Under the pieces are notes generated by a model, which ran no database searches, had not been told where the DNA came from, and worked only from the letters and a program-made list of their open reading frames with translations. Shown here in pieces: positions 4,364-55,278 of a DNA stretch of 64,000 bases. Origin of the DNA: Geminicoccus roseus DSM 18922 (GTDB lineage: Bacteria; Pseudomonadota; Alphaproteobacteria; Geminicoccales; Geminicoccaceae); the NCBI RefSeq assembly GCF_000427665.1, contig NZ_KE386572.1, positions 2,008,196 through 2,072,195 on the forward strand, written 5' to 3'. Within the stretch, counting starts at the first letter, position 1, and each line of letters begins with the position of its first letter. A program made the translations under genes and the position numbers.

Positions 4364-4415
4364 GGACACGGGACGGATCACGGCTGGAACGCCGGAATAT
4401 CGTCCTGAGTCACGA

Positions 4416-4470
4416 CCTTTTAGCGGTTTGTTTAACGTGGCCGCAAGCCGGTCGGCGCAAATCACCACGG
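4416..4470 (-). promoter_or_regulatory. SAM-II riboswitch upstream of metA
   Basis: On the minus strand the segment reads CGTGG, then TGATTTG, then CTTGCGG, then CCACG followed by TTAAACAAA and CCGCTAAAAGG. CGTGG and CCACG form stem P1. The conserved TGATTT, TTAAACAAA and GCTAAAAGG blocks are the hallmarks of the SAM-II (metA) motif of alphaproteobacteria, in which the 3' block folds back as a pseudoknot around S-adenosylmethionine. It lies in the 5' leader about 100 bases before metA, the classic genomic setting. Binding of SAM is expected to lower metA translation. Confidence 0.93.
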
Positions 4471-4484
4471 AGACAACGGCAGGG

Positions 4485-36788: not shown

Positions 36789-37194
36789 CTGCATCAGGCG
36801 GCCGGGCGGCCGCGCTCCCGCCAGCGATGGAGGGGCGAGGAAAGTCCGGGCTCCACGGAAGCACGGTGCCGGGTAACGCCCGGCGGAGGCGACTCCAGGG
36901 AAAGTGCCACAGAGATCGGTCAGCCCGCCTGGGCCCTTTCGGGGGCCTGCGGGTCATGGTGAAAAGGTGCGGTAAGAGCGCACCGCGCGGCCGGCAACGG
37001 CCGTGGCACGGTAAACCCCACCGGGAGCAAGACCAAATAGGGACGACAGCGGGCTTCGCGCCCGCAGGCCTGCTTCCGGGCTGGTCGTCCGGGTCGGTCG
37101 CGCGAGGCGGCGCGTGAGCGCCGTCCCAGAGGAATGGTCGCCGCCCGCCTTCGTGGCGGGCACAGAACCCGGCTTACAGGCCGCCTGATGCCTT
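36789..37194 (+). ncRNA. rnpB: RNase P RNA, bacterial class A
   Basis: Catalytic RNA of ribonuclease P, which matures tRNA 5' ends with the RnpA protein. The conserved cores are all present in order: GAGGAAAGTCCGGGCTCC (36836 on), GTGCCGGGTAACGCCCGG, CACAGAGA (36909 on), GGTAAACCCCACC, AGAGGAATGG, and the 3' CACAGAACCCGGCTTACAGG. The terminal helix P1 is formed by GCATCAGGCGGCC (36791-36803) and GGCCGCCTGATGC (37179-37191), which sets the ends to within a few bases. It lies 12 bases behind the amidase gene. Confidence 0.97.
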
Positions 37195-37279: not shown

Positions 37280-37343
37280 TTGTCCACAAGGGGCAGGGGG
37301 GCTGAGGCCTAGCTTTTCCACAGGTTGTGGCCCGATATCCACA
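37280..37343 (+). promoter_or_regulatory. cluster of three DnaA-box-like sites
   Basis: Three same-orientation 9-mers each differ at one position from the DnaA box TTATCCACA: TTGTCCACA (37280-37288), TTTTCCACA (37314-37322) and ATATCCACA (37335-37343). The last sits in an 8-base inverted repeat, GGTTGTGG and CCACAACC (37323-37346). They lie just upstream of the candidate dcw promoter. DnaA binding is inference. Confidence 0.45.
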
Positions 37344-37363
37344 ACCAGGTCGGTGTTTGCCGC

Positions 37364-37392
37364 TTGACCGTCCCCAGCGGGGCGGCCATAAA
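37364..37392 (+). promoter_or_regulatory. candidate sigma-70 promoter of the dcw cluster
   Basis: TTGACC (37364-37369) and CATAAA (37387-37392) are separated by exactly 17 bases, matching the -35/-10 consensus at 5/6 and 4/6 positions. Transcription would start near 37399, giving an untranslated leader of roughly 320 bases before rsmH. Two GANTC sites (37419-37423 and 37478-37482), the methylation target of CcrM in alphaproteobacteria, lie just downstream. Confidence 0.5.
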
Positions 37393-37458
37393 CTTAAGCA
37401 GCGCTGCGCGCATAGGTTGATTCGCTTGCTCGCCTTCAGGGCGCGGACACCGTGGGAC

Positions 37459-37489
37459 CATGTCGGTCATTGAAATTGATTCCGACATG
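37459..37489. repeat. inverted repeat CATGTCGG-N15-CCGACATG in the dcw leader
   Basis: A perfect 8-base inverted repeat (37459-37466 and 37482-37489) with a 15-base AT-rich spacer that contains a GATTC site. Centre-to-centre spacing of about two helical turns suits a dimeric DNA-binding protein; it could also fold as an RNA hairpin. The stretch from 37490 to 37700 is visibly poorer in GC than its surroundings and holds no gene that I can support. Confidence 0.5.
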
Positions 37490-37717
37490 CCGATAAGATA
37501 AGTAATAATGTCTTGGTCGTTCTTCGGAATGATTAGCCAAGCTTTGTCTTGTAGTGTTCATGATAATTTTATTGTATTCGAGCTGTTGTCCCGCGTGAAA
37601 ATTGTGACAATCCGAGATCTTCCCGAAAAATCCTCAGAAAATCATTGGTCAGCTGTTCGGCACGTGCTAACCCGCGTTCGATAGCCGTATTGCCTTCGCT
37701 CGAGGACATTGTCTCCC

Positions 37718-38740
37718 GTGGTCCCGATCGACGCCCCTTCCCCGTTGCCCGACGACAGCGCCCGCCAGGGCCATGCCCCGGTGATGCTCGCCGAGGTGCT
37801 GCATGCGCTGGCGCCGATTGCCGGGCAGACCGTGCTCGACGCGACCTTCGGCGGCGGCGGCTACACTCGTGCCATCCTGGCGGCGGGGGCGGCCCAGGTG
37901 ATCGCCCTGGACCGCGATCCCGACGCGATCGCGCGCGGCCGCCCGCTCGCCGACGCGGAGCCCCGGCTGACCCTGGTCCAGGCGCGTTTCGGGGAACTCG
38001 ACCAGGTCGTCCGTGACCAGGGGTTGGGTCAGGTCGACGCCATCGTGTTCGACCTGGGCGTGTCCTCCTTCCAGATCGACCAGCCGGAGCGCGGCTTCTC
38101 GTTCCGCTTCGACGCGCCGTTGGACATGCGGATGTCCAAGGAGGGCCAGACTGCGGCCGAGGTGGTCGCCGAGGCCAGCGAGGTCGAGCTGGCGCGGCTC
38201 CTTTGGAACTATGGCGACGAGCGCGACGCCCGCCGGATCGCGCGGGCCGTGGTGGCCGAGCGGGACAAGGCGCCCATCGACACCACGCGGCGGCTGGCCG
38301 AGATCGTCGCGCGCGCCAAGGGGCCGTCGCGCGACCAGATCGACCCGGCGACCCGTACCTTCCAGGCGCTGCGGATCGTGGTGAACGACGAGCTGGGCGA
38401 GCTCCGCCAGGCGCTGGAGGCGGCCGAGCGCGCGCTGCGGCCGGGCGGCCGGTTCGTGACGGTCGCGTTCCATTCCGGCGAGGATTCAATCGTCAAGGAT
38501 TTCGTCAACGACCGGGGCGGCCGGATCCGCCGCTCCTATCGGCATATGCCGCCGGTGCCCGAGGAGAACCCTCGCTGGGGCTGGCTGATCGACCGCCCGC
38601 TCCGGCCGACGGCCGAGGAGAGCGGCGACAACCCGCGGGCCCGTTCGGCCAAGCTGCGCTCGGCGATGCGGCTGGGCGCCGGGGTGAAGTTTCCAGGACC
38701 GGCACGCGGCGATGCCGGCATGAACGAGGACGAGCGATGA
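37718..38740 (+). CDS. rsmH: 16S rRNA (cytosine1402-N4)-methyltransferase
   Basis: Adds the N4-methyl group of m4Cm1402 in the ribosomal P site; first gene of the dcw cluster (formerly mraW). The 340 residues show GHAPVMLAEVL, the SAM-binding LDATFGGGGYTRAIL, FDLGVSSFQID, and the C-terminal RTFQALRIVVNDEL and FHSGEDSIVKDF blocks. GTG 37718 is preferred because GAGGA is then about 11 bases upstream; TTG 37709 is an alternative with poor spacing. It overlaps ftsL by four bases. The usual upstream neighbour mraZ is missing. Confidence 0.94.
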   Translation: MVPIDAPSPLPDDSARQGHAPVMLAEVLHALAPIAGQTVLDATFGGGGYTRAILAAGAAQVIALDRDPDAIARGRPLADAEPRLTLVQARFGELDQVVRDQGLGQVDAIVFDLGVSSFQIDQPERGFSFRFDAPLDMRMSKEGQTAAEVVAEASEVELARLLWNYGDERDARRIARAVVAERDKAPIDTTRRLAEIVARAKGPSRDQIDPATRTFQALRIVVNDELGELRQALEAAERALRPGGRFVTVAFHSGEDSIVKDFVNDRGGRIRRSYRHMPPVPEENPRWGWLIDRPLRPTAEESGDNPRARSAKLRSAMRLGAGVKFPGPARGDAGMNEDER

Positions 38741-39111
38741 CCGGGCGCAACGTGGTGTTTCTCGTGCTTCTCCTGCTGGGCACGGCCTGGGCGACCTTCC
38801 ACCTGAAATATGCGATGGTGCGGCTGGAGAGCCGCAGCGCCGTGCTGGAGCGCAAGATCGCGCTGGCGGTCGACGAGATCCGCACCCTGGAGGCCGATCT
38901 CGCCCTGCGCACCCATCCCGACCGGATCGTCGCGGTGGCGCCCGAACTGGGCATGGTGCCGGTCAACGTCACCCTGCTCGCCAGCGCCGACACGATGCCC
39001 GACCATGCCAGGGTCGAGTATGCCGACCGCGTCCTGGCGGTGCTGCTGCCGTCGGGCGCGGAGGTGCCGGCCCGCCTGAAGCCGCTCGTGATCAACGGCA
39101 TCGCGCGATGA
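38737..39111 (+). CDS. ftsL: cell division protein FtsL
   Basis: A 124-residue bitopic protein: short cytoplasmic start, membrane helix at about residues 5-22 (VVFLVLLLLGTAWATFHL), then a leucine-rich coiled coil (VRLESRSAVLERKIALAVDEIRTLEADLALRT) and the FtsL-like 'HPDRIVAVAPELGMVPV' segment. It works with FtsQ and FtsB to activate FtsW-FtsI at the septum. Identified from position, length and topology, since FtsL is poorly conserved. Four-base overlaps on both sides. Confidence 0.87.
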   Translation: MTGRNVVFLVLLLLGTAWATFHLKYAMVRLESRSAVLERKIALAVDEIRTLEADLALRTHPDRIVAVAPELGMVPVNVTLLASADTMPDHARVEYADRVLAVLLPSGAEVPARLKPLVINGIAR

Positions 39112-40823
39112 CGCCCAGGCGCACCGAGATCGAGGCGGTCCTGCTCGGCCGGCGCCGGATCGGCGTGCTGCTCGCCACCTTCGGCCTGTTGTTCTCGACC
39201 CTGGCCTTCCGTCTGGTCGACATCACCCAGTTCGCCGCCGCCGAGAAGGCGCGGCCCGGCTATGTGCGCCCCCAGGATGGGATCAGCCGGCGCGACGTGG
39301 TCGACCGCAACGGCGTGCCGGTCGCCACCGACGTGCTGGTGTCCGGCGTCGGCGCCGACCCGCGCGAGGTGCCCAAGGATGGGGAGACCATCCGCAGCCT
39401 CGCTGCCGTGCTCAACCGCGATCCCCAGGCGATCGCGCGCCTGCTGGACAGCGACCGGCATTTCGTCTGGCTGGACCGCCGCATCTCCCCCAGCCAGCAG
39501 GCCAGCCTCCTGCGCCTGGGCGTGCCGGGCATCGAGTTCCGCGACCAGCCGCGCCGCGTGTATCCCCAGGCCAACCTGGTGGCCCATCTGATCGGCCAGA
39601 CCGGGATCGACAATAACGGGCTGAGCGGCCTGGAACTGACCTTCGACAAGGAGATCCGGGCCGAGCCTGCCGGGCGTGACCGCCAGCCCTTCCCGCTCTC
39701 GATCGACCTGCGCGTCCAGCAGGCGCTGCGCGAGGAGCTGGCGGAGGCCATCCGCACCTACGAGGCCGAGGCCGGCAACGCCATCATCATGGACGTGCAC
39801 AGCGGCGAGCTGGTGGGGATGGTCAGCCTGCCGGACTTCGACGCCAACCACCCGGTCAGCCCGAAGGACCCGCGGCGCTTCAACCGCAACACCGAGGGCG
39901 TCTACGAGGTCGGCTCGATGTTCAAGGCGCTCACCCTGGCGACCTTGCTGGATGCCGGCACCATCCGCATGGACGACATGTGGGACATCCGCGAGCGCCT
40001 GCGGATCGGCCGCCGCACCATCGGCGATTCGCACATGCTGAAGCGCTGGGCCAACACCACCGACGTCTTCATCAACAGCTCCAACATCGGCACCGCCCGC
40101 ATGGCGCTGAAGGGCGGCAAGGAACTGCAGCGCTATTACCTGGAGCGGCTGGGCCTGCTGGACCGTGCCCAGCTGGAAGTGCCGGGCGTCAGCCCGCCGC
40201 TGGTGCCGCGCCGCTGGCCGGACATCACCGTGGCGGTGGTGTCCTACGGCCATACGCTGGCGGTCACCCCGATCTCCTTCCTGAACGCGTTCGCCGCCGT
40301 GGTGAACGGCGGGATCCTGCGCCCGGCGACCCTGCTGCGCCGCGACCCGTCCCAGCCCGTTGCCGGGGAGCGGGTGATCTCCCAGGCCGCCTCCGACCAG
40401 ATGCGCGAGCTGCTCTGGCTGAACGTCGTGGACGGCACCGGCACCAAGGCGCGGGTGCCCGGCATGATGGTCGGCGGCAAGACCGGCACGGCCGACAAGC
40501 CCGTCAACGGACGCTACGTGAAGGGGGTGGTGATCTCGAGCTTCGTCGCGGCCTTCCCGATGAACGACCCGAAATACGCGGTCATGGTGATGCTGGACAA
40601 CCCGACCGCCAACAAGGCGTCGTTCGGCTTCCGCTATGGCAGCTGGAACGCCGCGCCGGCCACCGGACGGGTCATCAGCCGGGTGGCGCCGCTCCTGGGC
40701 GTGCCGCTGGTGCCCGAGGCGGTCGAGGACCGCTTCCTGATGAGGGCGCCGCCGGAGATCCAGGAAAAGGAACTGAAGCGTCGGGGCAAGGAGGCGCGCA
40801 TTGCGGCTCTCGAGCCTGCTTGA
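39108..40823 (+). CDS. ftsI: septal peptidoglycan transpeptidase FtsI (PBP3)
   Basis: Class B penicillin-binding protein that cross-links septal peptidoglycan. The 571 residues have an N-terminal membrane anchor (about 17-35), a PBP dimer domain, and the transpeptidase with Ser270 in SMFK, SSN at 324-326 and KTG at 458-460. Normal length. It pairs with FtsW, encoded later in the cluster. The end overlaps the murE frame by 23 bases. Confidence 0.95.
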   Translation: MTPRRTEIEAVLLGRRRIGVLLATFGLLFSTLAFRLVDITQFAAAEKARPGYVRPQDGISRRDVVDRNGVPVATDVLVSGVGADPREVPKDGETIRSLAAVLNRDPQAIARLLDSDRHFVWLDRRISPSQQASLLRLGVPGIEFRDQPRRVYPQANLVAHLIGQTGIDNNGLSGLELTFDKEIRAEPAGRDRQPFPLSIDLRVQQALREELAEAIRTYEAEAGNAIIMDVHSGELVGMVSLPDFDANHPVSPKDPRRFNRNTEGVYEVGSMFKALTLATLLDAGTIRMDDMWDIRERLRIGRRTIGDSHMLKRWANTTDVFINSSNIGTARMALKGGKELQRYYLERLGLLDRAQLEVPGVSPPLVPRRWPDITVAVVSYGHTLAVTPISFLNAFAAVVNGGILRPATLLRRDPSQPVAGERVISQAASDQMRELLWLNVVDGTGTKARVPGMMVGGKTGTADKPVNGRYVKGVVISSFVAAFPMNDPKYAVMVMLDNPTANKASFGFRYGSWNAAPATGRVISRVAPLLGVPLVPEAVEDRFLMRAPPEIQEKELKRRGKEARIAALEPA

Positions 40824-42270
40824 GCAGGAAGACCTGCTCTCCCCCCTGTCCGCCGAGGCCCTGGATCTGGACATCCGGGGCCTTGCCCTCGACTCGCGCG
40901 CGGTCAGGCCGGGCAGCCTGTTCGCGGCGCTGCCCGGCACCAGGCTGGACGGCGCCACCTTCGTGCCGGACGCGCTGGCGGCCGGGGCCATCGCCGTGCT
41001 CGGCGGCCCGGCCCTGGCCGAGCGGGCGCTGCCGGTTCCGGTGCTGGCCGCAAGGGACCCGGCGGCCTTGCTGGCAAGGCTCGCCGCCCGCTTCTTCGGC
41101 CAGCAGCCCTCAACCGTCGCGGCGGTGACCGGCACCAACGGCAAGACCTCGGTCGCGAGCTTCACGCGCCAGCTCTGGGCGCTGGCGGGCCACGAGGCGG
41201 CCTCGATCGGCACGCTCGGCGTGCAGTCGACCACCGGCGACCTGGACGGCAACCTGACCACGCCCGACGTGATCACCCTGCAGCGCCTGGCGGCGGACCT
41301 TGCCGGCAAGGGGGTCGACCATCTGGTGATCGAGGCGTCCAGCCACGGCCTGGAGCAGAAGCGGGTCGACGGGCTGCATGTCCGCGCCGCCGCCTTCACC
41401 AACCTGACCCGGGACCATCTGGACCATCACGGCAATATGGCGGCCTATCTCGCCGCCAAGTGCCGCCTGTTCGACGAGGTGCTGGCGGCGGACGGCACGG
41501 CCGTGCTGAACGCGGACATTTCCGAGTTCGCGCTGCTGCGCGATGCCTGCATCCGTCGCGGCATCCGGGTGATCGATTATGGCTGGGCCGCCGAGACCCT
41601 GCGCCTGGAGGACTGGCACCCCGAGCCGGCCGGGCAGGTCCTGGCGGTGCGGCTGGATGGCCGCACCCACCGGCTCCGCACCAGCCTGGTCGGCGCATTC
41701 CAGGCCGAGAACCTGCTGGCGGCGATCGGGCTCTTCCATGCCACCGGCGGCGATCTGGACCAGGCTGCCGCGCTTCTGGGCGAGATCCGCGGCGCTCCCG
41801 GGCGGATGCAGCTGGCCGGCACCACCGCGCAGGGGGCGGCGGTCTATGTCGACTATGCGCACACGCCCGACGCCCTGGAAAAGGCGCTGCTCGCCGCCCG
41901 TCCCCATACCGAGGGCCGCCTCGTGGTCGTGTTCGGCTGCGGCGGCGACCGCGATCCCGGCAAGCGGCCGCTGATGGGGCGGGCCGCCTCCCAACTGGCC
42001 GATCTTGCCATCGTGACCGACGACAATCCCCGCAACGAGGATCCAGCCGCCATCCGGGCGGCCGCCCTGGGCGCCATGGCGCCGGGCGCACGGGAGATCG
42101 GCGACCGGGGCCAGGCGATCCGCACCGCGATCGACGGGCTCGATGCGGGCGACGTCCTCCTGATCGCCGGCAAGGGCCACGAGCGCGGCCAGACCGTCCG
42201 GGGGGTGGTGCATCCGTTCGACGACCTCGAGGTGGCCCGGGCGGCGCTGCGCGGGATAGCAACGTCATGA
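40801..42270 (+). CDS. murE: UDP-MurNAc-L-Ala-D-Glu:meso-diaminopimelate ligase
   Basis: Adds the third residue of the peptidoglycan stem. The 489 residues contain the Mur ligase ATP loop GTNGKTS (111-117), the EASSHGL block with the carbamylated-lysine region downstream, and DNPR at 408-411, which marks specificity for meso-diaminopimelate. The start is TTG 40801, inside the end of ftsI: it yields the usual N-terminus (MRLSSLL), and no better start is present downstream. The stop overlaps murF (ATGA). Confidence 0.94.
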
Positions 42271-43661
42271 GCCCGCTCTGGACGTCGGAGCAGGCGGCCG
42301 AGGCCACCGGCGGGGCCGTCGGGGGCGGCCCGTGGCAGGTCGGCGGGGTCGCCATCGACACTCGCGAGCTGGCAGCGGGCGACCTGTTCGTCGCGCTGGC
42401 CGGAGAGAACCGCGACGGCCACGCCTTCGTCCCGCAGGCGCTGGCCGCCGGGGCCGGGGCGGTGCTGGTCGCCGAGGCCGATGCCGTCCCGCCAGGCCGG
42501 CCCTGCCTGGTGGTGGCCGACACGCTGCGCGGCCTGGAAGGGCTGGCGTTCCACCGCCGCGCCGAGAGTGCCGGCCGGATCGTCGGCATCACCGGCAGTG
42601 CGGGCAAGACCACCGCCAAGGCGGCCCTGGCCACCCTCCTGGCCGGGTTTGGCCAAACCCATGCCAGCGCCAAGAGCCACAACAACCACTGGGGGGTGCC
42701 GCTGAGCCTCGCCCGGATGCCGCGCGACGCGAGCTTCGGGGTGTTCGAGCTCGGCATGAACCATGCGGGGGAAATCCGCGCCCTGGTCGCCCAGGTCCGC
42801 CCGCACGTCGCCCTGGTCACCACGATCGCCCCGGCCCATCTGGGGCATTTCTCCGGCGAGGAGGCGATTGCGCGCGCCAAGGCCGAGATCTTCGAGCGGG
42901 TCGAGCCGGGCGGCACCGTGGTGCTGCCCGCCGACAACCGGTGGTCGGGCCTGCTGCGCACCCTGGCGGAGCGCTCGCCGGCCGGCCGGATCCTGACTTT
43001 CGGCCGCGACGCCGGTGCCGATGTCCGGCTGCTGGCCGAGCAGGGAGGGGCGGAGGGCAGCGACGTGACGGCTTGGGCCGATGGCCGGCAGCTGTCCTGG
43101 CGCCTCGATCTTCCAGGCGGCCATCAGGTCGACAACAGCCTGGGCTGGCTGGCGGTGGCCCTGGCCCTGGACCTCGACCTGGATGCGGTCGCGGCACGGA
43201 TGCCGCTGGTCCGGCCGGTGGACGGGCGCGGCGTGCGCCGCCCGGTCGAGCTCCCGTCCGGCGTCAGGATCCTCCTGCTCGACGAGAGCTACAACGCCAA
43301 TCCGGCCTCGATGCGGGCGGCGCTGGACGTGCTGGCCCGCCAGCCCGGCCGCAAGGTGGCGGTGCTGGGCGACATGCTGGAGCTGGGCCCGCAGTCGGAC
43401 AGCCTGCATGCCGGGCTGGCGCCGGCGCTGGAGGCCGCCGGGGTCCAGGCGGCCTATCTGTGCGGATCGGCGATGGCGGAGCTGGCCGGCCGGCTGCCCT
43501 GCCCGATGGAGGTCCACCATGCCCCCTCCAGCGCCGAGATCCTGCCGCTCCTGGCCACCGGTCTGCGCGATGGCGATGCGGTGCTCGTCAAAGGTTCATT
43601 GGGAAGTCGCATGCGCGTGATCGTCGACGGACTTCAGCCCCCGGGCTCGGACCGCGCCTGA
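42267..43661 (+). CDS. murF: UDP-MurNAc-tripeptide:D-Ala-D-Ala ligase
   Basis: Attaches D-Ala-D-Ala to complete the UDP-MurNAc-pentapeptide. The 464 residues show the ATP loop [12 protein letters not shown] (about residues 105-116), [22 protein letters not shown], and [21 protein letters not shown] in the C-terminal domain. Start ATG 42267 overlaps murE by four bases; the stop shares one base with the mraY start. It uses the dipeptide made by Ddl encoded later in the cluster. Confidence 0.95.
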
Positions 43662-44749
43662 TGCTCTATCATCTGCTCGTGCCGCTCTCGGACACGCTGA
43701 CCGTCCTGAACGTGTTCCGCTACATCACCTTCCGCGCCGGTGGCGCGGTGATGACCGCCCTGTTCCTGAGCTTCTGGCTGGGCCCAAAGGTGATCCGCTG
43801 GCTGAAGAGCAAGCAGCCGGGCGGCCAGCCGATCCGCCTGGACGGGCCGGAGAGCCACCTGCTCACCAAGAAGGGCACCCCCACCATGGGCGGCGTCCTG
43901 ATCCTGCTGGCGCTGACCCTGTCGACCCTGCTCTGGGCGGACCTCGGCAACGGCTACACCTGGCTCGTCCTGTTCGTCACCCTGGGCTATGGCCTGATCG
44001 GCTTTGGCGACGACTATCTCAAGCTTACCAAGCGCAACAGCAAGGGTCTGTCCGGGCGCATGAAGCTCCTGGCCCAGGCGGCGATCGCCCTGGCAGCGGC
44101 CCTCTACTTGGTGGTCGTGGTCGACGGCCCGACGGCGACAGCACTGGCGCTGCCCTTCTTCAAGGACGCATTCCTGCCCCTGGGATTCATGTTCCCGATC
44201 TTCGCGATGCTGGTCATGATGGGCAGTTCCAACGCGGTGAACCTCACCGACGGGTTGGACGGGCTGGCGATCGTCCCGGTGATGATCGCCGCGGGCTGTT
44301 TCGGCATGATCGCCTATCTGGGCGGCAACGCGATCTTCGCCAACTATCTGGGCATCCCGCATGTCCCCGGTGCCGGCGAGATCACCGTGTTCCTGGCGGC
44401 GCTGGTCGGCGCGTCGATGGGCTTTCTCTGGTTCAACGCGCCGCCCGCCATGGTGTTCATGGGCGACACCGGCTCGCTCTCGGCCGGCGGCGCGCTGGGC
44501 GCCACCGCGGTGATCGTCAAGCACGAGCTCGTGCTGGTGGTGATCGGCGGCCTGTTCGTCCTGGAAGCGGTGTCGGTGATCGTGCAGGTCGCCAGCTTCA
44601 AGATGACCGGCCGGCGGGTCTTCCGGATGGCGCCGCTGCACCATCATTTCGAAAAGCTCGGCTGGCAGGAATCGACCATCGTGATCCGGTTTTGGATCAT
44701 CGCGTCGATCCTGGCTTTGATCGGCCTTTCCACCCTCAAGCTGCGGTGA
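43661..44749 (+). CDS. mraY: phospho-MurNAc-pentapeptide transferase MraY
   Basis: Inner-membrane enzyme that moves phospho-MurNAc-pentapeptide to undecaprenyl phosphate, forming lipid I. The 362 residues form about ten membrane helices; the catalytic aspartates lie in GFGDDYLK and [10 protein letters not shown], with the family blocks [20 protein letters not shown] and APLHHHFE. Start ATG 43661 is coupled to the murF stop. Typical length and order. Confidence 0.96.
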
Positions 44750-46116
44750 GCGAAAAAATGAGCTGGATGGAGCGGATCGCCGGTCGTGACGTGGGTGTCC
44801 TGGGGCTCGGGCGCAGCGGCATGGCGACGGTGCGGGCCCTGCTCGGCAAGGCCGGGCGGGTCATGGCGTTCGATGACGATGCGCGGGCGATCGCCCGGGC
44901 GGTCGAGCTGGGCGCGGTGCGTCCCGATCCGGCGGCGATCGGGGGCCTGGCCGCCATGGTGGTCAGCCCCGGCATCCCCCTGACCCATCCCGCCCCGCAC
45001 CCGGTGGTGCAGGCCGCCTCCCAGGCAAACATCCCGCTGATCGCCGACCTGGACCTCCTGGCCGCGCGCCTGGGCGACCGCCTGGTGGTGGGGATCACCG
45101 GCACCAACGGAAAGTCGACCACCGCCGCCCTGATCCACCATCTCCTGACCCGCGCCGGCCGGCCGGCGGTGCTCGGCGGCAATATCGGCGTGCCGGTCCT
45201 CGACCTGGACCTGGGGCCGCCCGATGCCGTGGTCGTGCTGGAGCTGTCCTCCTACCAGCTCGACCTGATCCACGACCTGCCGATCGACGTCTCGGTCTGG
45301 ACCAATCTCACCCCGGACCATCTGGACCGCCACGGCTCGATGGACGGCTACATCCAGGCCAAGGAGAAGCTGTTCCGGCACGGCCGCGGCCATGCCACCG
45401 CGGTGATCGGCGCCGATGACCGCCCCAGCCGCCTGGCCGCGATCCGGCTGGCGGCGCTCGGCACCCACCGGATCGTGCCGGTCTCCGGCGACCACATGCC
45501 CGGTCCGGGCGTGGGCGTGGTCGAGGGGCGGCTGATCGACGCCAGCGACAAGACCTCCCGCTTCGTCACCGACCTTGGCCAGGCCCGCACCCTGCGCGGG
45601 CACCACAACCAGCAGAACGCCGCCGCCGCCTATGCCGCGGTGCGGGCGCTGGGGATGGCCCCCAAGGTCGCGGCGGAAGGGATGTTCGACTTCCCTGGCC
45701 TGCCGCACCGAATGGAGCAGGTCCTGGAGAAGGACGGGGTCGCCTGGGTCAACGACAGCAAGGCCACCAACCCGGATGCGGCGGGCAAGAGCCTGGCGGC
45801 CTATGAGCGGATCGTCTGGATCGCCGGCGGCCGGCCCAAGCCCGGCGGGTTCCGGGAGCTGGCGCCCGCCATGGCCAACGTCACCACCGCCCTGCTGATC
45901 GGCGAGGCCGCCGATGCCATCGCCGCCGATCTGGGCTCCGTGGTCGAGTGCCGCAAGGTCGGCACGCTCGAGGCGGCGGTGGCGGCCGCGCGCGAGATCG
46001 CCGGCCCGGGCGCCACCGTGCTGCTGGCGCCGGCCTGCGCCAGTTTCGACCAGTTCCAGGACTACGAGGCGCGCGGCCAGGCGTTCCGCGCCCTGGCAGC
46101 GGGTAGGGCGGCATGA
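44746..46116 (+). CDS. murD: UDP-MurNAc-L-alanine:D-glutamate ligase
   Basis: Adds D-glutamate to UDP-MurNAc-L-alanine. The 456 residues contain [16 protein letters not shown] (N-terminal Rossmann fold), the ATP loop [36 protein letters not shown] and [15 protein letters not shown]. The start used is GTG 44746, overlapping the mraY stop as GTGA in keeping with the rest of the cluster; ATG 44758 four codons later is an alternative. Four-base overlap with ftsW. Confidence 0.94.
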
Positions 46117-47222
46117 TCGTCGTCGCGCGCAGCGATCGCAGCGTCTTCGGCTCCTGGTGGTGGACGGTCGACCGCGTCCTGATGCTGGGCTTCGCGATCC
46201 TAGCCCTGATCGGCCTGATCCTGGTGTTCGCCGCCAGCGGCCCGATCGCAATCCGCAACAACAACCCCGCGACCTATTTCGTCGAGCGGCAGGCCCTGTT
46301 CCTGGCGATGTCGATCGCGCTGATGATGGCAGCCTCGATGCTGTCGCCCAGGGGCGTGCTGCGCCTGTCGATGGCGCTGCTTGTCCTGTTCCTGGTGTTC
46401 ACGGCGCTCACCCCCTACGGTCCTGAAGTCAAGGGCGCCCATCGCTGGCTGGATTTCGGCAGCTTCCGCCTGCAGCCTTCCGAGTTCGTCAAGCCGACCC
46501 TGGCGATCGTGGTCGCCTGGCTGCTGGCGCGCACCCAGGGGCTGCAGGGCCTTCTTCCGGCGCTCCTGCCGGTGGGCGTGGCGCTGGCCATGCTGGCCGG
46601 CCAGCCCGACATCGGCATGGCGTTCGTGGTGGCCGCGGTGTTCGGGATCCAGCTCTTCCTGGCCGGGCTCGGCTGGATCTGGATCATGGCCGCGGCCGGA
46701 GCCGGCATTGCCGGGCTTTGGGGCGCCTACCTGTTCTACCCGCACTTCACCCAGCGGGTGGACGGGTTCATGGATCCCTCCAAGGAGGTCTATCAGGTCG
46801 ACAAGGCGATGAACGCGGTGGCCTCCGGCGGCTTCCTCGGGCGGGGGCCGGGCGAGGGCGTGGTCAAGTTCCAGCTCCCCGACGCCCATTCCGACTTCAT
46901 CTTCGCCGCCACCGCCGAGGAGTTCGGGGTCATCACCTGCCTGATCCTGGTGGGCCTGTTCTTCTTCCTGCTGTTCCGGGCGCTGCGCCGGGTCGCCAGC
47001 CTGCACGACCGGTTCTGCCTGCTGGCCGCCGGCGGCCTTGCCGCCCAGTTCGGCCTGCAGTCCTTCATCAACATGGCGGTCAACCTGAACCTGATGCCGA
47101 CCAAGGGCATGACCCTGCCGTTCATCTCCTATGGCGGCAGCTCGCTGCTGGCGTTCGGCCTCAGCATCGGCCTGCTCCTGGCGCTGACCCGGCGCGGCGC
47201 GCATCTGGAAACCCAGCGATGA
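46113..47222 (+). CDS. ftsW: septal peptidoglycan glycosyltransferase FtsW
   Basis: SEDS-family polymerase that builds septal glycan strands with FtsI. The 369 residues have about ten hydrophobic segments and the family blocks KGAHRWLDFGSFRLQPSEF, QPDIGMAFV and, near the end, NLMPTKGMTLPFISYGGSS. Overlaps murD and murG by four bases each. Length is normal. Confidence 0.95.
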   Translation: MIVVARSDRSVFGSWWWTVDRVLMLGFAILALIGLILVFAASGPIAIRNNNPATYFVERQALFLAMSIALMMAASMLSPRGVLRLSMALLVLFLVFTALTPYGPEVKGAHRWLDFGSFRLQPSEFVKPTLAIVVAWLLARTQGLQGLLPALLPVGVALAMLAGQPDIGMAFVVAAVFGIQLFLAGLGWIWIMAAAGAGIAGLWGAYLFYPHFTQRVDGFMDPSKEVYQVDKAMNAVASGGFLGRGPGEGVVKFQLPDAHSDFIFAATAEEFGVITCLILVGLFFFLLFRALRRVASLHDRFCLLAAGGLAAQFGLQSFINMAVNLNLMPTKGMTLPFISYGGSSLLAFGLSIGLLLALTRRGAHLETQR

Positions 47223-48286
47223 CCGCCCGGGTGGTCATCGCCTCGGGCGGCACCGGCGGCCACATGTTCCCGGCCCTGGCGCTGGCCGACGAGATCGTCC
47301 GGCGCGGGCATCGGGTGGCGCTGGTGGTGGACGAGCGGGGGCGGCGCTGGGTGACCGGCGACCACGAGGTCCATGTGGTGGCCGCGGCAAGGCCGGGACT
47401 GGGCGTGCTCGGCCGGGGCCTGGGCGTGGCGCAGGGCCTGGTGCAGTGCCTCGGGCTGCTGCGCCGGATGCGGCCCTCGGTCGCCGCGTGCTTTGGCGGC
47501 TACGCCTCCTTCCCGCCGGCCATGGCCGCCCGTCTCCTCGGTCGTCCGGTGGTGGTCCACGAGCAGAACGCGGTGCTCGGCAAGGCCAACCGCGCCCTGG
47601 CGGGCTTCTCCAGAAGGCTGGCCCTGAGCTTTGCCCGGACCGACCACGCCCCGGCTTTGTCCGAGCGCACCGTGGTGACCGGCAACCCGCTGCGCGCGGG
47701 CTTCCGGGCCCCGGTCGCGGACGCCCCGCAGGATGGCCGCCTGCGCATCTTCGTGATGGGCGGCTCGCAGGGCGCGCGGGTGTTCTCGACCGTGCTGCCC
47801 GAGGCCCTGGCCCGGCTGCCGGCGGAACTGCGTTCCCGGCTGCGTCTGGTCCAGCAGGCCCGCGCCGAGGATCTGGACCATGTCCGCCAGCGCTATGCGG
47901 AACTCGGCATCGAGGCGGAGATCGCCAGCTTCTTCGACGACGTGCCCAGGCGCCTGTCCGGCTGCGACCTGGTGATCGTCCGCAGCGGGGCCTCCACGGT
48001 CGCGGAAGTCACCGCCTGCGGCCGTCCCGCGCTTTATGTTCCCTATGCCCATGCCGCGGACGACCACCAATACGTCAATGCCCTGAGGGTCGCCGAGGCC
48101 GGGGGCGGGCTGGTCCTGCGTGAACTGGACGCGTCGCCGGAAAAACTTGCAGACGCCATCAACGAATTGGCGAACAACCCGGAGCGCCTTTCGGTCATGG
48201 CGGCAGCGGCCCTGTCGTTCTCCCGGCCGGACGCCACCGTGGCCCTGGCCGACCTGGTTCTTTCCGTTGTGGAGCCTGATCCGTGA
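47219..48286 (+). CDS. murG: UDP-GlcNAc:lipid I N-acetylglucosaminyltransferase
   Basis: Converts lipid I to lipid II on the inner face of the membrane (GT28). The 355 residues begin with the donor-side [16 protein letters not shown], then [24 protein letters not shown], the second-domain [12 protein letters not shown] and the UDP-GlcNAc-binding [21 protein letters not shown]. Start and stop both overlap neighbours by four bases. Confidence 0.95.
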
Positions 48287-49698
48287 AGTTCCTGCCGCTG
48301 GATGTCGGCATCATCCATTTCATCGGGATCGGCGGGATCGGCATGTCCGGGATCGCCGAGGTGCTGCACCATCTGGGCTACCGCGTGCAGGGCTCCGACC
48401 AGGCGGCCAGCGCCAATGTCCTGCGCCTGCGCGACAAGGGGATCGAGGTCGCGATCGGCCACCGCGCCGCCAATCTGGGCGATGCCCGGGTCGTGGTGTT
48501 CAGCTCGGCGGTGCGGGCCGACAACCCGGAGATGGTGGAAGCCCGCGCCCGCCGCCTGCCGGTGGTGCGCCGCGCCGACATGCTGGGCGAGCTGATGCGG
48601 CTGCGCTCGGCGATCGCGATTGCCGGGACCCATGGCAAGACCACCACCACCTCGCTGGTGGCGGCCCTCCTGGATGCGGCCGGCTATGACCCCACCGTGG
48701 TCAACGGCGGCATCATCAACGCATACGGCACCAACGCCCGGCTGGGCTCCGGCAGCTGGATGGTGGTGGAGAGCGACGAGAGCGACGGCAGCTTCCTGCG
48801 CCTGCCGGCCACCATCGGGGTGGTGACCAACATCGATCCCGAGCACATGGAGCATTACGGCACCTTCGACGCGGTGCGCGACGCCTATTACAGCTTCGTC
48901 GAGCGGCTGCCCTTCTACGGGTTCGCCGTGCTGTGCGTGGACCATCCCGAGGTGCAGGCTCTGATCGCCCGGGTGACCGACCGCCAGGTGGTCACCTACG
49001 GGTTCAGCCCGCAGGCCGAGGTGCGTGCCACCAGCCTTGCGATCGAGGCGGCCGGCTCCACCTTCGACGTCACCGTGACCAGGCGCGGCGGCGGCACGCC
49101 GCTGGTCCTCGAGCGCATGTTCCTGGCGATGCCCGGCCGGCACAACGTCCAGAACGCCCTGGCGGTGATCGCCATCGCCGAGCAGTTGGGCATCGACCAT
49201 GCAGCGACCCGCACCGCGCTCGGCTCGTTCGGCGGGGTCAAGCGTCGCTTCACCATCACCGGCACGGTCGGCGGCGTGACGGTGGTCGACGATTATGGCC
49301 ACCATCCGGTGGAGATCCGCGCGGTGCTGTCGACCGCCCGCCAGGCCACCAAGGGCCGGGTGGTGGCGGTGGTCCAGCCGCACCGCTACTCCCGGCTGGC
49401 CAGCCTGTTCGACGAGTTCTGCGGCTGCTTCCACGACGCCGACAGCGTGCTGATCGCGCCGGTCTATGCCGCGGGCGAAGCGCCTTTGGAAGGGATGGAC
49501 CGCGACCGGCTGGTCGAGGGCGTGCGCGCCCGCGGCCATCGGGACTGCCGCGCGATCGACGGGCAGGAGGGGCTGGCCGACCTGGTCCGGGAGGTCACCC
49601 GCCCGGGCGACCTGGTGGTCTGCCTGGGTGCGGGCACGGTGAGCGCCTGGGCCAATGCCCTGCCGGGCGAACTCGCTGCCCTGGCCGAGGCCGCCTGA
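48283..49698 (+). CDS. murC: UDP-MurNAc:L-alanine ligase
   Basis: Adds L-alanine, the first residue of the stem peptide. The 471 residues carry [17 protein letters not shown], the ATP loop [32 protein letters not shown] and [14 protein letters not shown]. The start is GTG 48283, overlapping murG as GTGA. The stop shares one base with the murB start. Normal length. Confidence 0.95.
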
Positions 49699-50603
49699 TG
49701 GCCGACTGGCGCGACCAACTGCCGGCGGTGCGCGGTGACCTGCGGCGGGACCTGCCGCTGAGCGGGCTGACCTGGCTGAAGGTCGGCGGGCCGGCCGACC
49801 TCCTGTTCAACCCGGCCGATGCCGAGGACCTGGCCGCCTTCCTGGCGGCGCTGCCTGCCGATGTCCCGGTGCTGCCGGTGGGCGTCGGCTCCAACCTGCT
49901 GGTGCGCGACGGCGGGGTCCGCGGGGTGGTGGTGCGCCTGGCCGGCCCGCTCGCCAAGGTCGTCGCCGACGGCAACCTCCTGGTCGCCGGGGCCGGGGCG
50001 CTCGACCAGAACGCCGCCCGCACCGCCCAGCGCGCCGGCCTTGCCGGCATCGAGTTCATGATCGGCATCCCGGGCACGATCGGCGGCGCGGTCCGGATGA
50101 ACGCCGGCGCCTTTGGCGGCGAAACCCGCGAACGCCTGCTCTGGGCGGAGATCGTCGGCCGGGACGGGGTGATCCGCCGCCTGGACAATGCCGAGCTGGG
50201 CTTCTCCTACCGGCGCTCCACCCTGCCGGCGGGTTCGATCGTGCTGCGCGCGGCCTTCGCCCTGGAGCCGGGCGACCCGGCCGCCATCCTGGCCCGGATG
50301 GACGCGATCCGGGCCGAGCGGGAGGCCGCCCAGCCGATCCGCGTCGCCACCGGCGGGAGCACCTTCAAGAACCCCGAGGGTGGCCGCGCCTGGCAGCTGG
50401 TCGACCAGGCCGGCTGCCGCGGCCTGGAGCACGGGCGGGCGATGGTGTCCGACAAGCACTGCAATTTTCTGATCAACCGTGGTGGCGCCTCGGCCCGGGA
50501 AATCGAGGAGCTGGGCGAGGTGGTCCGCCAGCGGGTCCGCGACCGGACCGGTGTGGCGCTGTCCTGGGAAATCGTCCGGGTAGGCGACGAGGTGCCGTCA
50601 TGA
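49698..50603 (+). CDS. murB: UDP-N-acetylenolpyruvoylglucosamine reductase
   Basis: FAD/NADPH enzyme that makes UDP-MurNAc. The 301 residues show TWLKVGGPADLL, the FAD-binding PVGVGSNLLVRDGG, IGIPGTIGGAVRMNAGAFGG, YRRSTLP, and GGSTFKNPEGG with the proton-donor serine. The length fits the short (type II-like) MurB common in alphaproteobacteria. Coupled to murC by TGATG and to ddl by ATGA. Confidence 0.95.
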   Translation: MADWRDQLPAVRGDLRRDLPLSGLTWLKVGGPADLLFNPADAEDLAAFLAALPADVPVLPVGVGSNLLVRDGGVRGVVVRLAGPLAKVVADGNLLVAGAGALDQNAARTAQRAGLAGIEFMIGIPGTIGGAVRMNAGAFGGETRERLLWAEIVGRDGVIRRLDNAELGFSYRRSTLPAGSIVLRAAFALEPGDPAAILARMDAIRAEREAAQPIRVATGGSTFKNPEGGRAWQLVDQAGCRGLEHGRAMVSDKHCNFLINRGGASAREIEELGEVVRQRVRDRTGVALSWEIVRVGDEVPS

Positions 50604-51529
50604 GCCGCTGGAAGAACGCCCGGGTGGCGGTGCTGATGGGCGGCAGGTCGGCCGAGCGCGAGGTCAGCCTCGTTTCCGGAAGTGCTTGCGCCAGCGCCCT
50701 GGAGGAAGCAGGATTTTCCCCTATCCGCCTCGATGCGGCGGATCGGCTGGTGGAGCAGCTCATCGAGCTGCGCCCCGATGTCTGCTTCAACGCGCTGCAT
50801 GGCAGGCTCGGCGAGGATGGACGGGTGCAGGGTGCTCTCGATCTGCTCGGCATACCCTACACGCATTCCGGCGTGCTGGCCTCGGCGCTGGCCATGGACA
50901 AGCCGCAGGCCAAGCGGGTGTTCCAGGCGGTCGGGCTGCGCTGCCCGCAGGGTGTCGAAACCAGCTATCGCGAGCTGACCGAGCGAGGCGCGCCGCTCGA
51001 CGGCCCGATCGTGGTCAAGCCGTCCTGCGAGGGCAGCTCGGTGGGCGTGCTGATCGCCCCGGACGGCAATCTGGCCCCGCTTGCCCGCCGCAACGACGTC
51101 GACCCGGACCAGCGCCTGCTGGTGGAGACCTATGTCGAGGGCCGTGAGCTGACCTGCGCGGTGCTGGACGACGAGGCCCTGGCGGTGACCGAGATCGTGC
51201 CGCGCGAAGGCTTCTACGACTATCGCGCGAAATACACTGCCGGATATGCAGACCATGTGGTGCCGGCCGACATCCCTCCGGAGACCGCCAGGACGGTGAT
51301 GGAGTGGACCCTGCGCGCCCACCGGGCTCTCGGCTGCCGGGGCACCAGCCGCTGCGACTTCCGCTGGGACAGCCGCCTGCCTGGCGCGGAGGGGCTCTAC
51401 CTGCTGGAGATCAACACCCAGCCCGGCATGACCCCGATGTCGCTGGTCCCGGAACAGGCGGCCCAGCGCGGCATCTCGTTCGTCGACCTGGTCCAACGCC
51501 TGCTGGAGACCGCGCAATGCGACGGTTGA
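50600..51529 (+). CDS. ddl: D-alanine:D-alanine ligase
   Basis: ATP-grasp enzyme making D-Ala-D-Ala for MurF (DdlB-type position). The 309 residues include VLMGGRSAEREVSL, FNALHGRLGEDG, the lid region VVKPSCEGSSVGV, and the metal-binding LLEINTQPGMTPMSLVPEQA. In the second of these, HGRLGEDG replaces the more usual HGxxGEDG with no loss. Its last 13 bases overlap ftsQ. Confidence 0.95.
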   Translation: MSRWKNARVAVLMGGRSAEREVSLVSGSACASALEEAGFSPIRLDAADRLVEQLIELRPDVCFNALHGRLGEDGRVQGALDLLGIPYTHSGVLASALAMDKPQAKRVFQAVGLRCPQGVETSYRELTERGAPLDGPIVVKPSCEGSSVGVLIAPDGNLAPLARRNDVDPDQRLLVETYVEGRELTCAVLDDEALAVTEIVPREGFYDYRAKYTAGYADHVVPADIPPETARTVMEWTLRAHRALGCRGTSRCDFRWDSRLPGAEGLYLLEINTQPGMTPMSLVPEQAAQRGISFVDLVQRLLETAQCDG

Positions 51530-52359
51530 GCCGCACCGCGACCCGGATTCACGCCCTGCGCCGCAGTCGGCGCCGCCCCCGCTGGGTGCGGCAGCTGACC
51601 AATTCGGCGCTGGTGGTCCTGCTGCTGGCGGGAGCCGTCTCAACCCTGTGGATAAGTGTGGGACGAACCCACATCCAGCCGCTGCTGGCCTCGGTTGGCG
51701 ACGTCTGGCACGGGACGACAGCCCGTTCCGGGCTGGTTGTGCAGAAACTCTCCAGTGACGGGAGAGTGCGGACTTCTGTGGATGAATTGAGGACGGTCCT
51801 TGATGGGCTGCGGGGGTCCAATATACTTTTGGTTGATATAGATCAGGCGCGACGCCGTATTGAGGAGCTTCCCTGGGTGAAGTCAGCGTCCGTGCATCGC
51901 CGGCTTCCCGACACCCTCCATGTCAGCCTGGAGGAGCGCAAGCCCATGGCGCTGGCCGAGGCCGATGGCGGCCGGCTGGTCCTGATCGACGAGGACGGCG
52001 AAACGGTCCGCATCTCGGATCTGCGGCCGTTCGCCCGGCTGCCCACGGTGGCGGGCGAGGGGGCGCAGCGCCATGCCGGCGAGCTCCTGGCCCTGATCCG
52101 CTCGGAGCCGGCGCTCTCCCGCCGGGTGACCGGCGCGCGCCGGATCGGCAGCCGGCGCTGGAACGTTTGGATCGACAGGAGGATCGAGGTGCGGCTGCCC
52201 GAGAACGACGCCGCTGCCGCCTGGCACAAGCTTGCCCGGGTCCAGGCGGATGCCGCCCTGCTCGACAAGGCCGTGGTGGCGCTGGATCTGCGCGCCGTTG
52301 GGGGGATCGTGGTGCAGGCCGACCCCAGGGTCGGCAGCGATGGCCGGGAGGGCGCATGA
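51517..52359 (+). CDS. ftsQ: cell division protein FtsQ
   Basis: A 280-residue bitopic divisome protein. A very basic cytoplasmic tail (RRSRRRPRWVRQ) precedes a membrane helix at about residues 30-48. A POTRA domain (VDELRTVLDGLRGSNILLVDIDQARRRIEELPWVKSA region, about 88-125) and the FtsQ beta domain follow. It recruits FtsL/FtsB. The start overlaps ddl by 13 bases. The part from 51760 to 51850 is clearly richer in A and T than the rest of the cluster. Confidence 0.93.
   Translation: MRRLSRTATRIHALRRSRRRPRWVRQLTNSALVVLLLAGAVSTLWISVGRTHIQPLLASVGDVWHGTTARSGLVVQKLSSDGRVRTSVDELRTVLDGLRGSNILLVDIDQARRRIEELPWVKSASVHRRLPDTLHVSLEERKPMALAEADGGRLVLIDEDGETVRISDLRPFARLPTVAGEGAQRHAGELLALIRSEPALSRRVTGARRIGSRRWNVWIDRRIEVRLPENDAAAAWHKLARVQADAALLDKAVVALDLRAVGGIVVQADPRVGSDGREGA
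51647..51655 (-). promoter_or_regulatory. perfect DnaA-box consensus inside ftsQ
   Basis: TGTGGATAA is the exact complement of the DnaA box TTATCCACA. A one-mismatch copy, TGTGGATGA, follows at 51777-51785 in the same orientation. Such an AT-rich 9-mer should be rare by chance at this base composition. Binding is not shown. Confidence 0.4.
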
Positions 52360-53654
52360 GCTCGGCAGCTCTCGACCGGCGCCCGGCCGCCATCGGCGGC
52401 TTTGACCCGGCTGCCGCCAGCCGGGTCCGCGCCGTGGTCGACGTGGGCACCAGCAAGTTCGGCTGCTGGATCGTCCGGCCCAAGCGCTCGGGCGGCTTCG
52501 AGCTGCGCGGCAAGGGTTATCAGGCAGCCGACGGCGTGCGCAGCGGCGAGATCGTCGACGGCGACAATGCCGAGCTGGGCATCGCCGCGGTCGTTCATGA
52601 GGCCGAGCAGGCTGCCGGCGAGGAACTGCGCGCGGTGGCGGTGGTGACCAGCGGCGGGCAGCCGCGCTCCGCCCATGTCCGGGTCGAGGTGCCGCTGTTC
52701 GGCCGGGCAGCCGACGGGGCGGACATCGCGCGGGCGCTGGACGCGGCCCGCAAGCAGCTGGACGATCCCGCCCGCTCGATCATCCACCTCGTGCCGCTGG
52801 AACTGTCGATCGACGGCGGCCGGCCGCTGCGCGACCCGAACGGGATGCGCGGCGAGAGCCTGCAGGTCCTGGCCCACGCCGTCAGCATCGACAGCCGCCA
52901 TGTCGCCCAGCTGCGCGCCTGCCTGGACGGGTGCCATCTGGACGTGGTCGGCATGGTCTCGTCCGGCTATGCGTCGGGCTGGTCCGTCACCACCGAGGAG
53001 GAGCGCGAGCGCGGCGTGCTGGTGCTGGACCTGGGTGCTGGCGTCTCCAACGTCGCGCACTTCTTCGGCGGCCGCCTGGCCCTCCTGGCCGCGGTGCCCT
53101 ATGGCGGCGACCACATCACCGCCGACCTGGCCCATGGCCTGTCCACCCAGCGCGCCCATGCCGAGCGGATCAAGTCGCTCTACACCAGCGTGCAGGCGCG
53201 CCATGGCGACGCAGACCAGCGGATCGCGGTGCCGCACGTGGGCGACCCGGAAAGCTGGCCATCCGGCGAGGTGGCCCGCTCGCGGCTGACCGAGATCGCC
53301 AGGCCCAGGGTCGAGGAGATCCTGGAGCTGATCCGCAACCAGTTGAAGGACCACGCCGATCTGTTCCGCGCCATGCCGCCTGCCGGGCTGGTGCTGACCG
53401 GCGGGGCGTCGCGGATCGAAGGGCTGGTGGAACTGGTCGACGAGATGTTCGGCTTGCCGGTCCGGTTCGGCCGGCCCGACCGCATCCAGGCGGGCGAGGT
53501 GTTCGAATGCGAGCCTTGCGCGAGTGCCGCGAACGGTGCACTCGCCTTGTGCCGGGGCGAGGACGGCGGACAGGGCTGGCGCGGAGAGAGCGCCGGCACG
53601 TCTTTGGGCCGAGGCTGGTCCAGGTTCCGCAAATGGCTTCGTGAGAATTTCTGA
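52356..53654 (+). CDS. ftsA: cell division protein FtsA
   Basis: Actin-like ATPase that tethers FtsZ filaments to the membrane. The 432 residues contain the phosphate-1 loop [14 protein letters not shown], the phosphate-2 [26 protein letters not shown], the adenosine-site [14 protein letters not shown], and a C-terminal amphipathic helix ([15 protein letters not shown]) for membrane binding. Overlaps ftsQ by four bases; a 94-base gap with a hairpin separates it from ftsZ. Confidence 0.95.
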
Positions 53655-53660
53655 AGGATC

Positions 53661-53687
53661 GGCGCCGCCTGAAAGGGGGGTGGCGTC
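53661..53687 (+). other. hairpin in the ftsA-ftsZ gap
   Basis: GGCGCCGCC (53661-53669) pairs with GGTGGCGTC (53679-53687) over nine base pairs, including two G-U pairs, with a TGAAAGGGG loop. It starts six bases after the ftsA stop. It could be a partial terminator or an RNA-stability element that lets ftsZ be expressed differently from the upstream genes. Confidence 0.4.
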
Positions 53688-53748
53688 ATCTGCTTGGCGG
53701 TTCGGTGACCCGGTCCTGCGCGAGAGGACGGGAGGGGTGGAGGACGAG

Positions 53749-55278
53749 ATGACGATCAACTTGACCATGCCAGTGGCCCACGACCTGAAGCCCAGGATCA
53801 GCGTGGTAGGTGTCGGCGGTGCGGGCGGCAACGCCGTCAACAACATGATCACCGCGCACCTGGAGGGCGTGGAGTTCGTCGCCTGCAACACCGACGCCCA
53901 GGCGCTCGACCGTTGCCTCACCGACCGCAAGATCCAGCTCGGCAACACCGTCACCCACGGCCTGGGCGCCGGTGCCAGGCCCGAGATCGGCCGCGCCGCC
54001 GCCGAGGAGGCGCGCAACGAGATCATCGACGCCCTGTCCGGCAGCCACATGGTGTTCATCACCGCCGGCATGGGCGGCGGCACCGGCACCGGTGCTGCCC
54101 CGGTGATCGCCAAGGCGGTCAAGGAGCAGGGCATCCTGACGGTCGGCGTGGTCACCAAGCCCTTCCAGTTCGAGGGCGGCTACCGCTCGCGGCTCGCCGA
54201 GAGCGGCATCGAAGAGCTGGAGCAGTGGGTCGACACGCTGATCGTGATCCCGAACCAGAACCTGTTCCGGATCGCCAACGAGCGCACCACCTTCACCGAA
54301 GCCTTCCAGATGGCCGACCAGGTCCTGCACATGGGCGTGCGGGGCGTGACCGACCTGATCGTCATGCCCGGCCTGGTGAACCTGGACTTCGCCGACATCC
54401 GCACCGTCATGTCCGAGATGGGCAAGGCGATGATGGGCACCGGCGAGAGCGAGGGCGAGCGCCGCGCCATCGATGCCGCCGAGAGCGCCATCTCCAACCC
54501 GCTGCTCGACGAGGTGTCGATGAAGGGCGCCCGCGGCGTCCTCATCAACATCACCGGCGGCCCGGACATGACCCTGTTCGAGGTCGACGCCGCCGCCAAC
54601 CGGATCCGCGAGGAAGTCGACCAGGACGCCAACATCATCTTCGGCTCGACCTTCGACGAATCGATGCACGGCAAGATCCGGGTCTCGGTGGTCGCCACCG
54701 GCATCGCCATGCAGGAGCGCAAGCGCCGTCCGCAGCATTCGGCTGTGGAGGCGGCCCCCGCCGGCAACCCGGTGCCGCAGTCGCCGCTGCGCTTCCAGCC
54801 CCAGGTCTCCCGCCCGATCACCCAGGCCTATCCGACCCTGCGCGCGGCCACCCCGCCGGCGCCGACCACCGCCCAGACCGTGGACGCCCATATCCGCGCC
54901 GTGGCCGAGCGCAGCGACCACCGCACCGACGGGGCTGCCGCGGACCGCAGCGAGGTCTATGCCCAGAGCGCGCCCGAGCCAGCAGCCGTCTACGAGCAGC
55001 AGCAGCCCGAGCGCGAGTACGAGCCGGCCGAGGCCGAGCACCTCGCCGACCGCCGGACGCGCCAGCTCTCGGGCCTGGGGCGGGCCGAGGATCGCCTGAG
55101 CAACCTGTTCAGCAAGATGAGCAAGGGGCTGGGCTTCGGCGGCGACGCTCCCCAGGCCGAACCGCGCAACGAATCGACCCACCTGCGCTGGGAGCAGGCC
55201 AGCTCCGGCAATACTGCAGGGAGCGATCCGGTCGCGGAAATTCCCGCTTTCCTGCGCCGTGACCGTTCAAGGACTTGA
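53749..55278 (+). CDS. ftsZ: cell division protein FtsZ
   Basis: Tubulin-like GTPase forming the Z-ring. The 509 residues contain [13 protein letters not shown], the tubulin signature [22 protein letters not shown], and [12 protein letters not shown]. After the core (about residue 325) comes a long, disordered Gln/Ala/Glu-rich linker of about 165 residues and the conserved C-terminal peptide [11 protein letters not shown] that binds FtsA. The long linker is usual in alphaproteobacteria. Start ATG 53749 follows GGAGG by 6-7 bases; GTG 53737 is an alternative. Confidence 0.96.

Follow-up and report, generated by a model that had tools for sequence, protein, structure and literature searches.

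DnaA-box sequences conserved upstream of a putative dcw promoter in Geminicoccus roseus and other Geminicoccaceae

We have analysed a 64,000-nucleotide stretch of the Geminicoccus roseus genome (hereafter, the window; 2,008,196-2,072,195 of a 5,421,495-base contig), in which a dcw (division and cell wall) cluster begins. The features of this locus are summarized in Table 1. The gene for the RNase P RNA is followed by 516 bp in which no gene was recognised, and then by rsmH, the first gene of the cluster. Pfam matches were obtained for 9 of the 10 dcw frames scanned, a set that leaves aside the frames between ftsW and ftsQ; the remaining one of the 10, the frame at the ftsL position (38737-39111), gave no Pfam match. 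Elsewhere in the window, a SAM_alpha riboswitch was found on the minus strand at 4400-4478 (RF00521, 75.3 bits).

Table 1. Features between rnpB and the dcw cluster of Geminicoccus roseus (positions in the window)
Feature	Position	Strand	Remarks
rnpB (RNase P RNA, class A)	36794..37192	+	gene upstream of the boxes; Rfam RF00010, 268.8 bits
DnaA box 1, TTGTCCACA	37280-37288	+	one mismatch from consensus TTATCCACA; 75 bp to -35
DnaA box 2, TTTTCCACA	37314-37322	+	one mismatch from consensus TTATCCACA; 41 bp to -35
DnaA box 3, ATATCCACA	37335-37343	+	one mismatch from consensus TTATCCACA; 20 bp to -35
-35 element TTGACC of predicted dcw promoter	37364..37369	+	TTGACC in 25/30 family loci; exact 8-mer CTTGACCG in 9/16 genera
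-10 element CATAAA	37387..37392	+	weak; without final T; CATAAC in same-genus relative
Putative untranslated leader	37399..37708	+	placed from promoter position
GATTC (GANTC sites)	37419 and 37478		downstream of -10
rsmH (mraW), first dcw gene	37709..38740	+	start TTG 37709 or GTG 37718
Remaining dcw cluster	38737..55278	+	Pfam matches fit ftsI, murE, murF, mraY, murD, ftsW, ftsQ, ftsA, ftsZ

A sequence-only reading of this DNA had pointed to three near-consensus DnaA boxes, in one orientation, upstream of a TTGACC-N17-CATAAA promoter, and we observed exactly this arrangement, with the starts and gaps given in Table 1 (gaps were counted from box end to -35). When up to one mismatch was allowed, the window contained 6 matches to TTATCCACA, compared with 1.98 expected and a maximum of 5 over 100 shuffles, and 3 of the 6 form the cluster. 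We also counted boxes at this threshold in 109 pieces of 20 kb (2.18 Mb of the 5.42 Mb contig, ~40%) together with the remainder of the window. There were 77, and three fell within 300 bp of each other at the dcw locus only; this locus belongs to the window, is covered by none of the 20-kb samples, and was thus entered into the count by choice. All five contigs together have 6 exact copies of TTATCCACA, 3 of them in the 5.42 Mb contig, and the reversed pattern, used as a control, occurs 16 times. One of the three exact copies in the contig lies in the interior of ftsQ (51647-51655, minus strand), where TCATCCACA is also found (51777-51785, minus strand). Two copies of TGGGGATAA (TTATCCCCA on the opposite strand), which are spaced 33 bp from each other (L001:283 and L001:316) and precede the open frame of dnaA by ~0.8 kb, are possibly a regulatory site. 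The DnaA frame of this genome contains DHTTV, in keeping with a DnaA-responsive dcw promoter.

The promoter had been described as a good one. This description fits the -35 element; the -10 element, CATAAA, is weak, and a consensus promoter scan did not list TTGACC-N17-CATAAA, returning four other sites at 37470-37631, including three promoter-like sites on the plus strand of the leader at 37470, 37482 and 37604. Because of the weak -10 element and these competing sites, the true transcription start in Geminicoccus may differ from the one near 37399 that is predicted from the promoter position. Our preference for 37364-37392 comes from conservation rather than from the consensus scan. Among the 25 family loci with TTGACC, 22 have TAnnnT 17 bp after it, the exceptions being both Geminicoccus genomes and G042. 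TTGACC was not found in G003, G005, G008, G015 and G031 (30 loci searched), and in G003 and G005 we saw by eye TTGACT-N17-TAGGGT and no box. The block immediately before rsmH (37590-37708; GTGACAA ... AGAAAA ... TTGGTC) shows good conservation with the same-genus relative, and a promoter-like site of the consensus scan, 37604-37631, falls inside it.

Conservation in relatives had been set beforehand as a check on the boxes, and they passed it both within the genus and across the family. In the same-genus relative (G001), whose RsmH is 71% identical, all three boxes are kept at identical offsets, -429, -395 and -374 from the RsmH match start. Box 1 reads TTATCCACA in that genome and boxes 2 and 3 are identical to those of G. 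roseus, so that 26 of 27 box bases are the same in the pair, compared with 49 of 74 spacer bases. For the wider comparison, 31 Geminicoccaceae genomes were searched, rsmH was found in every one, and 30 loci were taken; in the search for relatives, rsmH matches were present in 30/30 genomes (12 of them non-family). In other genera, offsets refer to the beginning of the match, which need not coincide with the actual start codon. Usable rnpB-rsmH regions numbered 28, since in G030 and G031 the contig ends before rnpB; for G007 a fixed stretch was taken because of a run of N within rnpB. A box with up to one mismatch was present in 24 of the 28 regions, representing 13 of 16 genera, and an exact box in 18; the four regions without a box at this threshold were those of G003, G004, G005 and G016. 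The regions hold 51 boxes in all (mean 1.4, maximum 4 in 40 shuffles) and 26 exact ones (0.025 in shuffles), and 150 permuted 9-mers gave a mean of 1.8 matches and a maximum of 9. In a count made free of any motif, TATCCACA and TTATCCAC were the most widely shared exact 8-mers (11/16 genera each), followed by CTTGACCG and CTGTGGAT (9/16 genera each). At one mismatch, the DnaA box is equalled in its spread over genera by some GC-rich 9-mers.

The distances between these elements indicate which of them belong together. Of the 25 TTGACC loci in the family, 22 have at least one box in the 140 bp upstream, and each of these 22 has a box separated by 62-82 bp from the -35 element, a family-wide position that the 75-bp gap of box 1 in G. 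roseus matches; in the other 3 (G004, G016 and the contig-cut G030) the same 140 bp contain no box. Over 11 genus means, the standard deviation was 7 bp from box to -35, a value aided by the search band (gaps of 46-86) although a 140-bp scan returned the same boxes, 33 bp from rnpB to box, and 36 bp from -35 to rsmH. G009 offers two candidate promoters, with a gap of 65 or 81, and the second was used. The far greater variability of the rnpB and rsmH distances argues that the boxes go with the promoter element rather than with rnpB. The gaps gave a mixed picture of helical phasing. The primary gaps gave p 0.026 at 10.5 bp, with a better fit at 8.8 bp, and near 10.2-10.3 bp the p values were 0.0025 for the pooled and 0.0009 for the unique-value list, any effect of common ancestry being contained in all of these values. 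In the aggregate, DnaA-box sequences and TTGACC greatly exceed chance expectation, and the two have been kept together with little variation in their spacing.

We considered whether the sites might act on rnpB by affecting read-through or the formation of its 3' end, with the hairpin GGTTGTGG-N8-CCACAACC as one possible means. Box 1 begins 87 bp after the rnpB end and the hairpin is perfect in G. roseus, but one of its pairs is lost in the same-genus relative, and the distance from rnpB varies as described. Also, the RNA stability calculated for the stretch is ordinary (z -0.59) and a terminator search gave no terminator-like site; on these two results the hairpin or terminator reading was dropped, and a role in rnpB expression appears very improbable. 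A DnaA-titrating or nucleotide-exchange site, of the datA or DARS type, lying beside the dcw cluster by chance would account for three boxes at a distance from the likely oriC (see below). We think this unlikely, however, as 21 of the 24 box-bearing family regions have only 1-2 plus-orientation upstream boxes, and box position follows the TTGACC element.

From these sequence comparisons, the boxes and the TTGACC element between rnpB and rsmH probably constitute a DnaA-responsive promoter of the dcw operon. DnaA would bind the TTATCCACA-type boxes, which precede a promoter for the housekeeping sigma factor. This promoter has the form CTTGACC-N17-TAnnnT in most of the family and TTGACC-N17-CATAAA in G. 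roseus, and rsmH and the genes downstream of it would be transcribed from it. Relative to the predicted start, the centres of boxes 3, 2 and 1 would lie near -60, -81 and -115, and the first two of these we take to resemble class I activator positions. Because the boxes lie upstream of the -35 element without overlapping it, and because the -10 element is weak, the effect of DnaA around replication initiation would most likely be activation, and division and wall synthesis would thereby be timed to replication. A variant of this reading, its probability overlapping with that of the DnaA-responsive promoter as a whole, is that DnaA represses the promoter, either through a loop between an upstream box and an opposed box at the rsmH start, or by a block to elongation. 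Such an opposed minus-strand box (up to one mismatch, between -30 and +11 relative to where the RsmH match begins) was observed in 12 of 30 family loci, in exact form in 8 and doubled in three. Yet it was found in neither Geminicoccus genome, and in both of these genomes no box overlaps the -35 or -10 element; repression seems less likely than activation.

The proposal to which the boxes had been linked, that DnaA and CcrM together control the dcw cluster, is supported in part. The boxes are tied to the predicted dcw promoter and conserved at a constrained distance from TTGACC, as just described; the contribution of GANTC and CcrM found no such support. The two GANTC sites equal the expectation from base composition (2.04), the region of the same-genus relative has 0 compared with 2 in G. 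roseus, and GANTC is absent from 13 of the 28 family regions, and a CcrM-controlled promoter was rejected on the last two counts. In sampled sequence of the G. roseus genome, GANTC is depleted (1,909 sites, 6,264 expected), which agrees with CcrM-type methylation.

It had also been suggested that the region could be part of a replication origin. The locus does have DnaA boxes, GANTC and an AT-richer stretch, and it falls where cumulative GC skew is low and flat (1.0 to 2.45 Mb), close to the point at ~2.02 Mb that lies opposite the apparent terminus (~4.73 Mb). Counts of GGGNAGGG over the 109 samples showed a sharp switch at ~4.72-4.75 Mb and a broad one at ~1.2-1.6 Mb. This sequence is balanced at 2.05-2.20 Mb (9 to 7), but in the samples from 1.65-2.00 Mb it occurs 29 times forward and 8 times reverse, like the arm out to 4.7 Mb, a ratio that an origin at 2.05 Mb would not produce. 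Moreover, a search for parS-like sites (up to 2 mismatches) gave the positions 1.485 and 1.490 Mb, a backwards control pattern giving one match per strand, and hemE, next to which there are box-like sites, lies at 1.504 Mb. Between hemE and the adjoining open frame, which we take to be ppsR (RP001 type), there are box-like sequences and GANTC; a hemE context is typical of alphaproteobacterial oriC. The polarity of GGGNAGGG, the parS-like sites and hemE together place oriC, in all likelihood, near 1.5 Mb. The dcw locus, at 2.0455 Mb, is 0.54 Mb from hemE and lies off both the strand-polarity switch and the parS-like sites. On balance, the origin was rejected as an explanation of the dcw boxes, and its probability is negligible.

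MraZ is another regulator found at the head of the dcw cluster. A MraZ-controlled promoter is not what we observed here, as a mraZ profile gave no match in any of the 31 Geminicoccaceae genomes at E 0.001, a result that sets this family apart from MraZ-regulated dcw heads. The same profile was positive in 316 of 385 genomes of the class and matched 7 of 14 control genomes, including E. coli, B. subtilis and Caulobacter; a diverged mraZ could be missed, since in G029 a MraZ-like frame was seen by eye and gave no profile match. Of the 69 class genomes without a mraZ match, 4 are Geminicoccaceae, and 30 others were taken for rsmH (8 listed as having no match, and 22 presumed mraZ-negative from their absence among the matches). 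An rsmH match was obtained in 25 of the 30, giving 26 loci, of which 22 were scanned and the partial L284, L288, L291 and L292 omitted. Exact boxes were present in 2 of the 22 (G147 and G251, both of family f118), a single near-match in 5, and none in 15. Both f118 genomes examined (loci L269 and L272) have two exact plus-strand boxes between rnpB and rsmH and no detected mraZ. The combination of an exact box with undetected mraZ was thus seen in Geminicoccaceae and f118 and at 0 of the 20 other scanned mraZ-negative loci. The rarity of boxes at these 22 loci implies that lack of mraZ is not generally paired with DnaA boxes, and given the limitation to two families, DnaA may have taken the place of MraZ in some lineages but has not done so as a rule.

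Scans of other loci also gave few boxes. Among 11 of the 12 non-family loci (G025 was omitted), an exact box was found only in G018, between rnpB and mraZ; G027 and G028 have one near-match each, and the other 8 have no box. Of 80 named loci, whose mraZ flag (from a crude motif) was left unused, 23 were scanned, and 6 had a single near-match and 0 an exact box. The pattern TTRTCCACA-N59-88-CTTGACC occurs class-wide in 33 of 385 genomes, compared with ~19 for a backwards control, so that most matches outside Geminicoccaceae may be due to chance. When 30 of these loci (3 of the 33 matches had none) were compared with rsmH and mraZ proteins, matches were confined to four Geminicoccaceae members (G000, G006, G014 and G038). 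In two genomes of family f74 (L243 and L244), a DnaA box and CTTGACC precede a frame whose translation resembles transcription termination factor Rho on reading.

Control of division genes by DnaA is already known elsewhere. In Caulobacter crescentus, ftsZ, gcrA, mipZ and hdaA are described as having DnaA-activated promoters with one to six boxes (PMC3193534). The resemblance to Geminicoccus is that of alphaproteobacterial promoters with DnaA boxes, the Caulobacter set including a division gene, ftsZ; the Geminicoccus boxes differ in lying at the dcw head, upstream of rsmH, and are known from their sequence. In Bacillus subtilis, of a phylum distant from Geminicoccus, DnaA is reported to bind the ftsL promoter region in vivo (PMC8203912), and RsmH is encoded in the ftsL operon (PMC11019786); in that bacterium, levels of RsmH and PbpB looked unchanged after initiation arrest. 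Escherichia coli likewise has DnaA boxes in its dcw cluster, in ftsQA, which at least in one account are irrelevant to ftsZ transcription (PMC8203912), but these are intragenic, whereas the Geminicoccaceae boxes lie between genes and share their conservation with a promoter element. In Sinorhizobium meliloti, sites for CtrA have been reported in front of mraZ (PMC4414408). Our search of a set of open-access papers gave none that describes a DnaA site at the head of the dcw cluster in Geminicoccaceae.

With a DnaA-box promoter in 13 of 16 genera, placed at the dcw head, and with mraZ undetected, the Geminicoccaceae are suited to probing whether replication initiation directly controls the supply of division-gene products. 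A further step, that in Geminicoccaceae the main regulatory role at the dcw head has passed from MraZ to DnaA, we put forward with considerable doubt, and f118, a second family in which mraZ was undetected, may represent a separate replacement of the same kind. If DnaA did replace MraZ, one protein would set both the initiation of replication and the provision of enzymes for division and wall synthesis.
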